From the NCBI GenBank assembly GCA_014377015.1, contig JACMQL010000040.1, forward strand, positions 1 to 38,635: DNA of 38,635 bases, read 5' to 3'. Below the pieces are notes generated by a model that was given only the letters and a program-made list of their open reading frames with translations, was not told the origin of the DNA and did not search any database. Shown here in pieces: positions 23,087 to 27,146 of the stretch. Source of the DNA: Actinomycetota bacterium. Its GTDB lineage: Bacteria > Actinomycetota > Actinomycetes > Nanopelagicales > Nanopelagicaceae. A program made the translations under genes and the position numbers. Numbering within the stretch: position 1 is the first letter of the stretch; every line of letters starts with the position of its first letter.

Positions 23087-24004
23087 GTGAATATATTTCG
23101 ATCGGGGTTCGTGGCAATCGTCGGCAGGCCCAATGTCGGTAAATCTACGTTGGTAAATGCTTTAGTGGGTTCCAAAATTGCGATTACCTCGCCGCACCCC
23201 AACACAACGAGAAAAGCGATCAGGGGAATAGTCAACGCTACCGATTTTCAGGCCATCCTGGTTGACACACCAGGTATTCATAAGCCTAAAACCTTGTTGG
23301 GCAACCGATTGAATATGGTCGCCGGACAAAGCCTGGATTCAGTAGATGTCATCGTGCTCTGTTTGCCTGCTGATGAAGAATCGCGAGCCGGTGATGAATT
23401 TATTATTCAAGAAATTAGCAAGCACCCAAGAGCGAAAAAGATAGCGGTCATAACAAAGACCGATCTCGTGGGAAAGGGAGATCTAGCAGTTCGGCTGTCA
23501 GGAATTGTGGCGCTGGCAAAAGATTTTTCGTGGGATGAGATTATTCCCGTCTCCGCCGCAATTCACGATCAAGTCGAGTTACTTCGAGATCTGATTGGTC
23601 GACTTCTACCACCCGGTCCCGAATTTTACCCCTCGACCACAGTGAGCGATCAAGGGAGCGAACAGTGGATATGCGAACTTATTCGCGAAGCTGCGCTGCG
23701 GGATGCCCGAGAAGAACTTCCTCACTCAATCACTGTGACCATTGATGAAATGTCAGAGCGCCCGCAGAAGGGTCCGCAGAAGTTTTACGATATTCACGCC
23801 ACGATTCACGTAGAACGTGACACCCAAAGAGCAATACTTCTCGGACATCAAGGGGAGAGATTGAAAGACGTTGGGATCCGCGCAAGAGTTGACATAGAGA
23901 GAATTCTGAATTCGCGCGTGTACTTAGGGTTGCACATAAAAGTGTCTAAAGATTGGCAACGCGATCCAAAACTTCTGGAGAAATTAGGGTTCGGCGAGAA
24001 TTAG
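23087..24004 (+). CDS. era: GTPase Era
   Basis: 305 residues from GTG 23087. GTPase motifs are in order: G1 GRPNVGKST at 13-21, G2 threonines in PNTTRKA, G3 DTPG at 60-63, G4 TKTD and G5 SAA. The C-terminal KH domain shows GHQGERLKDVGIRARVDIERIL split by the GXXG-like loop. Era binds the 3' end of 16S rRNA and helps mature the 30S subunit. In most bacteria it lies after ybeY; here it follows dprA by 12 bases and probably ends the rplS-to-era transcript. Confidence 0.95.
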   Translation: MNIFRSGFVAIVGRPNVGKSTLVNALVGSKIAITSPHPNTTRKAIRGIVNATDFQAILVDTPGIHKPKTLLGNRLNMVAGQSLDSVDVIVLCLPADEESRAGDEFIIQEISKHPRAKKIAVITKTDLVGKGDLAVRLSGIVALAKDFSWDEIIPVSAAIHDQVELLRDLIGRLLPPGPEFYPSTTVSDQGSEQWICELIREAALRDAREELPHSITVTIDEMSERPQKGPQKFYDIHATIHVERDTQRAILLGHQGERLKDVGIRARVDIERILNSRVYLGLHIKVSKDWQRDPKLLEKLGFGEN

Positions 24005-24016
24005 ACGGGGAGTGTT

Positions 24017-24640
24017 CTACCTGCAGGATGTGAGCGCGGCAAATTTTGGTGTGGTCCTGCTCTTTATTTCACTACTCGCAGGTGCGTGAAATTTAACGCC
24101 AAAGAATTGAATGTAAGTCGCATCGAGGGCTTTTTGCACCTCACTTGGCGCGGAAGATCGGTACGAGATGTACTCAGATCCACTTGATATTGCACGGTAG
24201 GAAACTTTCTCATTACCGGCCTCGACCCACAACGGCGCCGAAAATCCAGAACACGTGGATGTTGAGTTTTTCAAGGTACGAAGTTCTAACTTCTGCATGG
24301 CATTGCACGTTATCCATACATACAGACCCTCGTTGCCATTGCGAACACCTTGCCCATAAACGGTTGGGTGGCAGTAGAGTTTTGACTCAGTTGAGGAGAG
24401 GAAATTTAGACTACGAGCATTGCTTAGTTCAATTTGGGTGGCAACAGTTTGCACGTAGGAATTTACTTGATTTTGCGAGAAATGACCTCCGGCTGCATTT
24501 CCAACTGGAGCAAAGGTTGCGCCGATTGCGATGGTTAGGACTGTCAGCACGGCGACGCTTGCAAAAGAAAAAGCCGACCTCTTTGTCGGCCTTCTCATTC
24601 CCGAAGCGATGCTTGTCGGGATTGTCCGCACGTGCACCAT
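24017..24640 (-). CDS. Secreted protein of unknown function next to a peptide-regulator pair
   Basis: 207 residues from ATG 24640, preceded by AGAGG at a seven-base spacing; ATG 24598 is an alternative. A signal peptide runs from the basic MRRPTKRS through a hydrophobic stretch to GNAA near residue 50. The mature part shows no family I know. It has five cysteines (KLYCHPT, VWITCNAM, TSTCSGFS and the terminal LTSCR among them), a WITCN motif and many Ser/Thr, as expected for a disulfide-stabilised exported protein. It lies 69 bases downstream of the 45-residue secreted peptide gene on the same strand and could share its transcript. A terminator-like hairpin sits inside its first codons. It may be the output or target of the peptide system; that is inference. 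Confidence 0.7.
   Translation of the reverse strand: MVHVRTIPTSIASGMRRPTKRSAFSFASVAVLTVLTIAIGATFAPVGNAAGGHFSQNQVNSYVQTVATQIELSNARSLNFLSSTESKLYCHPTVYGQGVRNGNEGLYVWITCNAMQKLELRTLKNSTSTCSGFSAPLWVEAGNEKVSYRAISSGSEYISYRSSAPSEVQKALDATYIQFFGVKFHAPASSEIKSRTTPKFAALTSCR
24563..24593 (-). terminator. Terminator-like hairpin inside the start of the secreted gene
   Basis: Read on the minus strand, GCCGAC and GTCGGC pair across a six-base loop (24573-24590) and are followed at once by TTTTTCTTTT (24572-24563). This is the form of an intrinsic terminator. It lies about 120 bases beyond the stop of the peptide gene but within codons 17-26 of the downstream secreted protein, so it could attenuate expression of that gene unless ribosomes follow closely. 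Confidence 0.55.
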
Positions 24641-24709
24641 ATCTAAACCTCTGTCTCTCGGTAGAACTGGTAACTCACTCAGCGAAATCTCGGATGGGGA
24701 AGACCGAAA

Positions 24710-24847
24710 TTAGCAGCAGCCGTTGAGTCCAGGGATGCTCGCAAGCAGGGTGTATGACACTGAAGTTTTTGACTTCGAAGCCGCTTCTGCAGGAACCACG
24801 GTGGTGGTTAAGAAAAGTGCGGTCAGGGTGATTGCAATCAACTTCAC
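24710..24847 (-). CDS. 45-residue secreted peptide ending in Cys-Cys (candidate signalling peptide)
   Basis: GTG 24847 is preceded by a perfect GGAGG at 24853-24857, five bases away, the strongest ribosome site in this part of the window. The frame is open further upstream but that part overlaps the regulator's promoter region. The product has a textbook signal peptide: MKLIAITLTALFLTTTVVPA then EAA, with likely cleavage after Ala22 or Ala23. This leaves a mature peptide of about 22 residues, SKSKTSVSYTLLASIPGLN plus GCC. The C-terminal double cysteine has no nearby partner enzyme for modification. The gene is divergent from an HTH-TPR regulator with a shared palindrome between them, as in Firmicute pheromone-regulator pairs. 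That it signals is inference; a small structural or toxic peptide is possible. Confidence 0.7.
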   Translation of the reverse strand: MKLIAITLTALFLTTTVVPAEAASKSKTSVSYTLLASIPGLNGCC

Positions 24848-24864
24848 AATATCCTCCAAATGGT

Positions 24865-24894
24865 CTTTACTATTTGTAAAGAGTGATAGTAAAG
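24865..24894. promoter_or_regulatory. Perfect 9-bp palindrome between peptide and regulator genes
   Basis: CTTTACTAT at 24865-24873 and its exact complement ATAGTAAAG at 24886-24894 flank a 12-base spacer that holds a third copy of the core, GTAAAG at 24876-24881. It lies 18 bases upstream of the peptide GTG and 47 bases before the regulator ATG, where it would cover -10-like boxes of both: TACTAT on the minus strand and TAAAGT (24890-24895) on the plus strand. This is the expected place for the regulator's own operator. Confidence 0.6.
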
Positions 24895-24941
24895 TATCCG
24901 AAGATTCAACGATTAGCAAGATCCTTTGAGAGGGTAGATAT

Positions 24942-26240
24942 ATGGAATTCGGAAAGCGACTCAGAGAACTTCGCGAGAGAGCCGGATACACCCAAGCCGA
25001 GCTCGCTGAAGGTATAGCAGCATCGAGTTACATTTCGTTGCTGGAAGCAGGCAAACGAAAGCCAAAGTTGGATCTAGTCATCAAATTATCGGATCGATTG
25101 GGAGTTTCATCAGATGAGTTGCTCGTCGACTCAAGCATGCAGGAAATTTCTCTGAACCTGAACACCGCCAAAGTAGCGTTGAGTTCAGGTGATCTCGAGA
25201 TTGCAAAAGAGTACGCAGAGCGGGTGCTCTCATCTCGCGGGGTACAGCATAGTTTCGTACTTGCCGCCTCGGTAGTTTTATTGCAAGTGAAGGCGCGCCA
25301 AGGTTCATTTGACGGAGTGCTAGACAAGTTGGAAATACTTTTTAAAGATAACTTTCACGCTGAGCCGGATGTGCTTGCCCGAATTGGCAATGAAATAGTT
25401 CGGGTCTGTTTTAGATCGGGAAATTTAGGCATGGGCGTACAACGTGGCGAAGAGTTTTTGCGCAATTACTCCTCTCGTTGGCCTGACAATGAAGTTGTTG
25501 AACTTCTGTGCCAGCTCGGCAATTGTCATTTTCATCGCGGTGATACAGCGCGGGCAGGTGAGATTGTCACGCGTGCCTTACAACTCGCCGAGAAATGTAG
25601 ATCCCCGAAAGCTATGGTTCAGTCCTATTGGCAGTCCTCTGTCCTAGCCGAGAGTCGGGGGGATCTGACACTTGCGCTAAGCCAAATAACGCAGGCAGTG
25701 CACTGGTCCAAGATTGCAGAACTGCATCAAGTCTTGCCGATTCTCAATGACAACGCGGCAAAGATCATGCTCGACCTTCCGAATCCAAATTACACACTCA
25801 TTAAAGATCTAGCAGAGTCGGCGTATCTCGATTTAACCGCACAGAACAATCCCGGTCACGCCGCCTATACATGCATCACTCTTTCAGAAGTTGCATTCCG
25901 CGAAGGCAATATGGACAAGGCCCTTGCCTACGTTCAACAAGGATTGGCAGAATTGCCAAAAGGAATTCCGGGACCAAAAGCCAGCCTGTACTCGCAGGAA
26001 GCGAAAGTACTTTTCCGACTTGGTCGGGTAGAAGAGTCCAAGGCGCAATTGGAGAACGCAATTTCGCATATGAGTGACATGGCGCCATCGAAAGAATTAG
26101 CGATTTACTGGGGCGAAGTAGCTCGCGTTTATGTTGAAATAGGCTTGCCGGATAAGGCGATTTACGCCTATGAGCAAGCAATTTCTGTGAAAGCTGCCTC
26201 TCAAGCAGAACAAGAGTTCTTTGCAAACGCCAGCCTTTAG
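24942..26240 (+). CDS. XRE-type HTH regulator with TPR-like repeats (RRNPP-like)
   Basis: 432 residues from ATG 24942, with GAGAGGG seven bases upstream. Residues 1-61 are a Cro/C1-type helix-turn-helix (FGKRLRELRERAGYTQAELA, YISLLEAGKRKPKLDLVIKL). The rest is all-helical with repeated pairs typical of TPRs, for example LGNCHFHRGDTARAGEIVTR, LSEVAFREGNMDKALAYVQQ, AKVLFRLGRVEESKAQLENA and VARVYVEIGLPDKAIYAYEQ. This architecture and length match NprR/PlcR/Rgg-type regulators, whose TPR domain binds an imported peptide and so controls DNA binding. The divergent small secreted peptide and shared palindrome strengthen the comparison. It could instead bind a protein or small ligand; XRE-TPR regulators of unknown ligand are common in actinobacteria. 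Confidence 0.85.
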   Translation: MEFGKRLRELRERAGYTQAELAEGIAASSYISLLEAGKRKPKLDLVIKLSDRLGVSSDELLVDSSMQEISLNLNTAKVALSSGDLEIAKEYAERVLSSRGVQHSFVLAASVVLLQVKARQGSFDGVLDKLEILFKDNFHAEPDVLARIGNEIVRVCFRSGNLGMGVQRGEEFLRNYSSRWPDNEVVELLCQLGNCHFHRGDTARAGEIVTRALQLAEKCRSPKAMVQSYWQSSVLAESRGDLTLALSQITQAVHWSKIAELHQVLPILNDNAAKIMLDLPNPNYTLIKDLAESAYLDLTAQNNPGHAAYTCITLSEVAFREGNMDKALAYVQQGLAELPKGIPGPKASLYSQEAKVLFRLGRVEESKAQLENAISHMSDMAPSKELAIYWGEVARVYVEIGLPDKAIYAYEQAISVKAASQAEQEFFANASL

Positions 26241-26264: not shown

Positions 26265-27131
26265 TTAGATAGCCGACGAACGTCGGGTCGCAAAGTATGA
26301 CCCGACGAGCACGAGCGGTAGTCCGATGACAATGCCAACCGTAACGGGTTCGCCAAGAATGAGGACCCCGAGGACGACCGCAAAGCCAGTATTTAAATAA
26401 GTTATGAATGAGGTACGCGCCGGACCAATCTCGTACATTATCTCGAAGAACAGAATAAAGGCGAGGGCCGTGCACAGTGCGCCGAGTCCAACAACTGCCC
26501 AAATACTTTTTGCCGAAACATTGTGCGTCGGCCACTGTTGAAGTGCGAAAGGTGCGTAGACGATTGCACTTATTACCAACGCAATCGCATTTATGGCGAT
26601 TCCACTCACTTCGGGCAACTTCTTTCGAATCATTATCACTGCATATGCGTACCCAACGGAGGAAAGTAGCACCGAACCAATTGCCCAGGGTGCGCTATGG
26701 CCAGTCAGACTCTCTAGACCAACCAGACTTACGACACCGATGAAACCAACAATTAAGCCGAGTAGTCGTGTTCTATGCCAAACCGTTTTGTCGCCGGCAA
26801 CAGAGGTGAAAATCACCGACCAGATGGGGACGGTTGCCAAGAGTAAACCAGTTAATCCAGAGGTGAGATTTCTTTCGGCATTTGTAATGAGAAACCAAGG
26901 TCCGATAATTTCCAAAACTGAATAAAGCGCGATGAATTTGTATGCTGTGCGTGGAACGGTGAGCGTTTTTCGGTGGATTGCGATCGGCATCAAGATAAGA
27001 GCACCTATGCACAAGCGGAGAAAGACCAAAGTGGCAGGTGTGAACTCTTCCACTGCAACGCGAATAAGTAGGTACGGAATTCCCCAGATAAACCCAAGCA
27101 AGAGAAAGAACAACCAACTTCTACGCGACAT
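26265..27131 (-). CDS. EamA-family (DMT) transporter
   Basis: 288 residues from ATG 27131; TTG 27140 is an alternative. About ten hydrophobic helices arranged as two EamA halves: LLLGFIWGIPYLLIRVAVEE opens the first and GSVLLSSVGYAYAVIMIRKK the second, each with the usual small-residue-rich helices, and the end is YFATRRS. The family exports amino acids, nucleosides or other metabolites and direction or substrate cannot be told here. It is convergent with the HTH-TPR regulator (24-base gap) and lies 15 bases downstream of the glycogen-synthase-like gene on the same strand, possibly as a second cistron. Confidence 0.88.
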   Translation of the reverse strand: MSRRSWLFFLLLGFIWGIPYLLIRVAVEEFTPATLVFLRLCIGALILMPIAIHRKTLTVPRTAYKFIALYSVLEIIGPWFLITNAERNLTSGLTGLLLATVPIWSVIFTSVAGDKTVWHRTRLLGLIVGFIGVVSLVGLESLTGHSAPWAIGSVLLSSVGYAYAVIMIRKKLPEVSGIAINAIALVISAIVYAPFALQQWPTHNVSAKSIWAVVGLGALCTALAFILFFEIMYEIGPARTSFITYLNTGFAVVLGVLILGEPVTVGIVIGLPLVLVGSYFATRRSSAI

Positions 27132-27146
27132 GTTGCGCAATAATAT

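Follow-up and report, generated by a model that had tools for sequence, protein, structure and literature searches.

We analysed a divergent gene pair in a 38,635-nucleotide stretch of DNA from an Actinomycetota bacterium (GenBank assembly GCA_014377015.1, contig JACMQL010000040.1), referred to here as the window. One gene, on the forward strand (24942-26240), encodes a 432-residue regulator with an XRE-type helix-turn-helix (HTH) domain and tetratricopeptide repeats (TPRs), which we propose to be a peptide receptor. The other, on the reverse strand (24710-24847), starts with GTG and encodes a 45-residue propeptide, MKLIAITLTALFLTTTVVPAEAASKSKTSVSYTLLASIPGLNGCC, predicted to be secreted. It is preceded by the ribosome-binding site GGAGG (24853-24857, reverse strand) and followed, on the same strand, by a candidate output gene for a secreted protein of 207 residues with four cysteines (24017-24640). 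Reading of the sequence and of alignment A2 predicts a Sec signal peptide at residues 1-22 of the propeptide, with PAEA/AS at its end (24782-24847, reverse strand), whilst the conserved C-terminal segment IPGLNGCC (24713-24736, reverse strand) is the proposed mature signal. Between the two genes lies a conserved operator-like element, CTTTAC-N5-GTAAAG (24865-24881, no strand assigned). An earlier sequence-only reading of this DNA had claimed a secreted peptide, an HTH/TPR regulator, a palindrome and a secreted Cys-containing protein, and all four are present. Its warning of a false longer start also held, as the mechanical open reading frame (ORF) in the peptide frame is 93 residues long and starts at 24991.

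We checked the conservation of the pair in 21 genomes of the genus, the window's own and 20 relatives, which are 74-100% complete. The regulator was found in 10 of them, with the copies in genomes G005 and G018 present as fragments at contig ends; an HTH-only match in G020 was left out of this count. At all nine loci where the position could be read the propeptide was present, that of G018 being unreadable because the contig begins inside the secreted-protein gene. A peptide profile search gave eight matches (E 6.9e-24 to 1.8e-13). The G005 peptide, at the very end of a contig, scored only E 0.109 and ends in IGGGEWCC; we accepted it as a full-length peptide in the expected position that adjoins the secreted protein.

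The genus peptides share a common signal peptide with a Pro-Ala-x-Ala cleavage-like end, then a variable middle that differs in length, then a conserved end. In the C-terminal segment I, P, G, C and C are invariant in all eight rows of alignment A2 (IPGLNGCC, IPGAQGCCG twice, IPGAAGCCG, IPGGIWCC twice, IPGATACCVA and IPGANSCC), giving a genus consensus of I-[PG]-G-x(3)-C-C. The GGAGG site is kept at all eight aligned loci. Leaving aside the start Met, 11 amino acids are invariant among the eight orthologues, and 10 of these are encoded by more than one synonymous codon. Judged from these codons, the propeptide is under purifying selection, and the conservation of the C-terminus behind a variable linker appears to fit export and release.

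The intergenic region was then compared. In the window it holds an inverted repeat (24865-24894) with fully complementary 9-nt arms, CTTTACTAT (24865-24873) and ATAGTAAAG (24886-24894, no strand assigned), 12 nt apart. The perfect palindrome claimed earlier is thus real in the window, but relatives do not keep the whole repeat. The portion they keep is 24865-24881, CTTTACTATTTGTAAAG; in all eight aligned regions CTTTACTATYTGTAAAG is identical, whilst at the position of the outer arm the other seven loci carry GTAAC or GTAAG and not ATAGTAAAG. The exact element has 10 matches in the 21 genomes, eight at the pair and two in tandem elsewhere in one relative (G015). With at most one mismatch there were 13 matches against none for a reversed control pattern; one of the three one-mismatch matches lies in G006, a genome lacking the regulator. 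With at most two mismatches the numbers were 21 (10 of them exact) and 15. Since this is no excess over the control, matches beyond the 10 exact ones were not counted as targets. The distance from the end of the element to the propeptide start codon is 17 nt in the window. No promoter came up in a simple sigma-70 scan of this region.

The regulator matched HTH_3 (residues 7-60, E 1.9e-12) and several TPR families (TPR_2, E 7.8e-18) in Pfam. Its structure model has five N-terminal helices followed by 18 further helices in nine pairs, with a mean predicted local distance difference test score of 86.7. The HTH domain covers approximately residues 1-61 (24942-25124, forward strand) and the TPR superhelix, the proposed peptide-binding part, residues 64-422 (25131-26207, forward strand), from helix H64-82 to helix H403-422. 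The best structural matches of the model were Rap proteins with bound peptide, with NprR close behind, so the predicted fold backs the RRNPP-like character proposed from sequence. Members of RRNPP(A) have a TPR domain of 5-9 repeats, behind an N-terminal HTH in those that bind DNA, as defined in PMC9765709. The window regulator has this order, HTH then TPR, by Pfam and with its nine modelled helix pairs, and a short propeptide gene with a ribosome-binding site adjoins it, its secretion judged from sequence. In NCBIfam the regulator stayed below cut-off for three families: NsdA (NF053720; 45.8 bits, cut-off 75), a family of TPR-like regulatory proteins that it matches weakly, the FxSxx-COOH system TPR protein (NF040586; 26.2 bits, cut-off 300) and the RstR family repressor (NF041951; 47 bits from the HTH part alone, cut-off 80).

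Paralogues of the TPR domain lacking the HTH were also seen in the genus. Two are intact, with approximately 51% identity (L032 in G014:C49 and L014 in G012:C64), and broken copies lie in L034 and L047 (G018). They adjoin a TetR-like gene and sugar transport or glycosidase genes, and no neighbouring peptide was seen. In their lack of an HTH they recall Rap-type receptors, by analogy.

Next, the distribution of the pair beyond the genus was studied. The first three full-length distant homologues, from three other families of the class, share 24.7-26.9% identity with the window regulator, and each has a divergent secreted small ORF (ending ..QPQWPGMCC, ..LQHPPTCC and ..YTAACECC); a fourth, weaker homologue (L035) has no such divergent ORF. 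A search with profile A5, built from five regulators, gave homologues at E ≤ 1e-20 in 98 of 394 class genomes, at 133 places. The upstream regions of 110 of these were read, the 23 left out being mostly the lowest-scoring; the peptide search covered the regions upstream of the regulators. After a first listing of the regions we wrote a rule requiring 20-90 residues, some Shine-Dalgarno match, a charged then hydrophobic N-terminus and CC within the last five residues. On the divergent strand 41 of the 110 regions were positive, against one on the co-directional strand, one of 2200 dinucleotide shuffles of the upstream regions and 13 of 1082 segments of other DNA, 11 of these 13 being known loci themselves. 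Secreted-looking mini-ORFs with any ending occurred in 66 of 110 regions, against 161 of 2200 shuffles.

Reading the blank regions by eye added only L136, L137, L161 and L203, with five residues after the CC in L137 and L203. This gives 45 CC peptides in the 110 regions, spread over nine family codes: f1 6/6, f20 20/21, f9 2/3, f17 8/36, f21 1/1, f27 1/1, f14 2/5, f26 2/12 and f38 3/5, with 0/20 in a set mostly from f19. Six of the 110 regions were known beforehand; leaving them out turns the 45 of 110 into 39 of 104. A peptide of the f20 type ends in SPGDFCC. The negative f20 and f9 loci are both cut by contig ends. All of the 30 best-scoring class regulators have a peptide, 28 by the rule and L136 and L137 by eye. 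Six f17 loci without CC have tails that carry W/P, such as ..GWGWPG and ..SPWQWPI. A second group of f17 paralogues with the same HTH start (L182, L185 and L187-L202) had a divergent CC peptide at none of 18 loci; these are possible orphan receptors. In the f19 set, the secreted small ORFs of L208 and L223 carry DI[EG]WP twice and might hold two signals per propeptide. At ten other loci of this set (L253, L257, L258, L261, L207, L214, L217, L218, L221 and L222) the divergent secreted ORFs have ..AAN[AT/I]GPA.. in common close to the presumed site of cleavage and lack a CC or W-P end.

In all, 12 further family codes, of which four lie outside the class, contain distant homologues paired with a divergent secreted mini-peptide whose end is CC and/or W-P. 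The conserved peptide frame and C-terminus beside the regulator, which the sequence-only reading had made the test of its proposal, therefore hold at the nine readable genus loci and also well outside the genus. Profile A4, built from nine regulators and run over 396 genomes of the phylum, gave 44 places with E ≤ 1e-30 as the limit, and 31 of these belong to genomes outside the class. Of the 21 read, 17 have a divergent secreted mini-ORF, and in 16 CC, WP/PW or [FIL]PG lies within the last eight residues, as in ..GAPWPHCC, ..GAPWPPCC, ..GYPWPK, ..AANWPHH and ..AKWPWG (families f47, f53, f88 and f92). The other strand gave the motif at 0 of 21 and shuffles at 3 of 1050. These counts describe and do not test, because six of the 21 had been seen earlier in search A1 and the motif was set after looking. 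The peptides have 28-35 residues, 12 of the 16 have no Cys, and by sequence they resemble short hydrophobic propeptides in which the signal sits right at the end.

Carriage on mobile elements was considered. Search A1 of viral contigs gave no relative among 53 pattern matches, being pattern-based and best for close relatives. One phage record, MT836207 (unverified), carries a homologue, with no clear peptide seen. Plasmid homologues occur in 14 Streptomyces records, and the five read showed no such peptide.

The best reading is that an RRNPP-like pheromone-receptor pair is widespread in Actinomycetota. For the window, we estimate a probability of roughly 70% that the pair is a self-contained peptide pheromone-receptor switch working like the RRNPP systems of Firmicutes. 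The direct observations behind this are the genes, their co-occurrence, the conserved frame and C-terminus, the conserved and nearly unique element and the predicted fold. From them we infer secretion, maturation, import, peptide binding, DNA binding and density dependence, as follows. The small gene would encode a Sec-exported propeptide, from which signal peptidase, perhaps with a second cut, would release the conserved end, IPGLNGCC or a shorter piece, as the mature signal. Uptake would presumably use an oligopeptide permease; the window genome has three SBP_bac_5 proteins, and this family is also found in 11 of 14 control genomes. Inside the cell, the peptide would bind the concave side of the superhelix formed by the regulator's nine TPRs and alter the action of the XRE domain at CTTTAC-N5-GTAAAG between the divergent genes. 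The propeptide and the downstream secreted 4-Cys protein would thereby be switched with population density. As a guess, repression relieved by the peptide is likelier than activation, given that the element and the propeptide start codon are 17 nt apart.

Two results weigh against this pheromone switch. Many regulator homologues have no visible peptide. In addition, the exact elements lie almost only at the pair's own intergenic region, and in family f20 the conserved intergenic element is a different one, which in each of six genomes occurs exactly once with at most three mismatches, again at the pair. Because the clear target in both groups is the pair itself, one rival reading, though unlikely, keeps some weight. 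In it the secreted peptide would itself be the end product, an exported small effector that is antimicrobial or reacts with metals or thiols, in an operon that is the sole target of a regulator sensing something else. The CC could bind metal or form disulfides. At most of the f20 loci listed, the next large gene beyond the peptide, which we name histidinol-phosphate aminotransferase-like, is on the other strand, with no other output visible. Two findings argue for a pheromone and not an effector. The regulator's predicted fold is nearest to peptide receptors, and the peptides outside the class have few residues past the hydrophobic stretch (NWPHH, YPWPK). Being short and mostly without Cys, they leave little for an effector, which is typical of a pheromone.

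We give somewhat less weight to a small protein that is retained in or at the membrane and acts by contact on the regulator of the same cell, as an anti-regulator or tether, with no cell-cell signalling. The peptide gene adjoins the regulator and some peptides outside the class resemble signal anchors with a very short tail, but in the window's genus the Pro-Ala-x-Ala end, variable linker and conserved C-terminus fit export and release better. That the small frame is not a gene, or adjoins the regulator by chance, is highly improbable despite its shortness, GTG start and longer mechanical ORF: its frame is conserved with synonymous variation, as are the Shine-Dalgarno site and C-terminus, and for the window's genus the codon pattern together with near-zero shuffle and genomic controls tells against a chance ORF, which was rejected.

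The proposed pheromone-receptor pair resembles Rgg/SHP, ComR/ComS and PrgX of the Lactobacillales in having an XRE-type HTH, a helical-repeat receptor and a short hydrophobic propeptide. It differs in coming from another phylum and in its C-termini, CC or W-P. NprR/NprX and PlcR/PapR of the Bacillales share with it the order of HTH and TPR superhelix, and have a secreted propeptide with the signal at its C-terminus. PlcR was matched by the regulator profile, and NprR by profile A4 and by fold; we know of no Cys-Cys peptide end in either system. Rap/Phr and AimR/AimP differ from it, Rap having no HTH and AimR being phage-borne. Rgg and SHP genes are often divergent, and of the NprR, PlcR and Rgg layouts to which the locus had been likened it is the last that comes closer. 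The parallel with NprR and PlcR fails in this respect, since PMC9765709 has the Bacillales pheromone gene downstream of its receptor, whereas the window propeptide gene is divergent. The same paper describes Rgg and PrgX as without recognisable TPR sequences (PMC9765709), whilst the window regulator has canonical TPRs by Pfam.

Signalling in Actinomycetota is usually told as one of small molecules such as gamma-butyrolactones, and intracellular peptide receptors paired with secreted propeptides are regarded as characteristic of Firmicutes. The large RRNPP_detector survey covered Firmicutes and viruses only (PMC10075063), and the main text of PMC9765709 has no word starting with 'actino'. A 2026 review, in the passages considered, places RRNPP systems in Gram-positive bacteria and 'other Firmicutes' and gives gamma-butyrolactones for Streptomyces (PMC13220807). 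The novelty that the first reading had stated agrees with our literature search, which found no published account of such a system in Actinobacteria in titles and abstracts, preprints and most subscription papers lying outside it. Since pairs with the C-terminal variants CC, WP/PW and FPG occur across the phylum, the arrangement is probably old. On balance we favour the view that Actinomycetota own an old class of linear peptide pheromones that spans the phylum. Cytoplasmic HTH-TPR receptors would read these signals, which would be made from short, divergently encoded propeptides ending in W-P-x or vicinal Cys-Cys. The Cys pair could redox-gate the signal, with a disulfide outside the cell and thiols inside. 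If the pairs work, such peptide signalling extends to a second major phylum, antibiotic producers included, and each pair brings a predicted signal of few residues that can be synthesised and directly tested.

The secreted 4-Cys protein had been suggested as a possible effector. The 10 of 21 genus genomes that carry it are exactly those with the regulator, and both are missing from the other 11 (p = 2.8e-6, overstated as evidence because the three genes are adjacent and their joint absence may reflect few events). A profile of the protein matched two of 296 genomes of the class, both within the window's genus, so its link with the regulator stands in the genus, but by these matches it is a local addition to the pair. 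It has no Pfam match, nothing over cut-off in NCBIfam and no match at E ≤ 1 in the PDB; the propeptide likewise has no Pfam match. The locus is flanked by era (23087-24004, forward strand) and an EamA-like transporter gene (26265-27140, reverse strand), both named from their translations.

Some element matches away from the pair were inspected. The tandem exact elements of G015 (C2:891135 and 891170, 35 bp apart; L066 5136-6175) precede a 25-codon frame which, read by eye, resembles the propeptide signal peptide and stops before any CC end. A sigma factor gene that we name FliA-like follows, and beyond it, on the other strand, lie genes that we name CsrA-, FliW-, FlgL- and FlgK-like. In G005:C34 (L101 1488-1530) a perfect 17-nt core palindrome has a further half-site on each side, giving four CTTTACA/TGTAAAG in 43 nt, with a type IV pilin gene approximately 130 nt downstream; it belongs to the two-mismatch class and was not counted as a target. 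In these two relatives the switch may reach appendage genes, for the flagellar sigma factor and the type IV pilin. In G002:C62 (L068 4354), a gene for a Ser-rich secreted protein has a one-mismatch element approximately 120 nt upstream.
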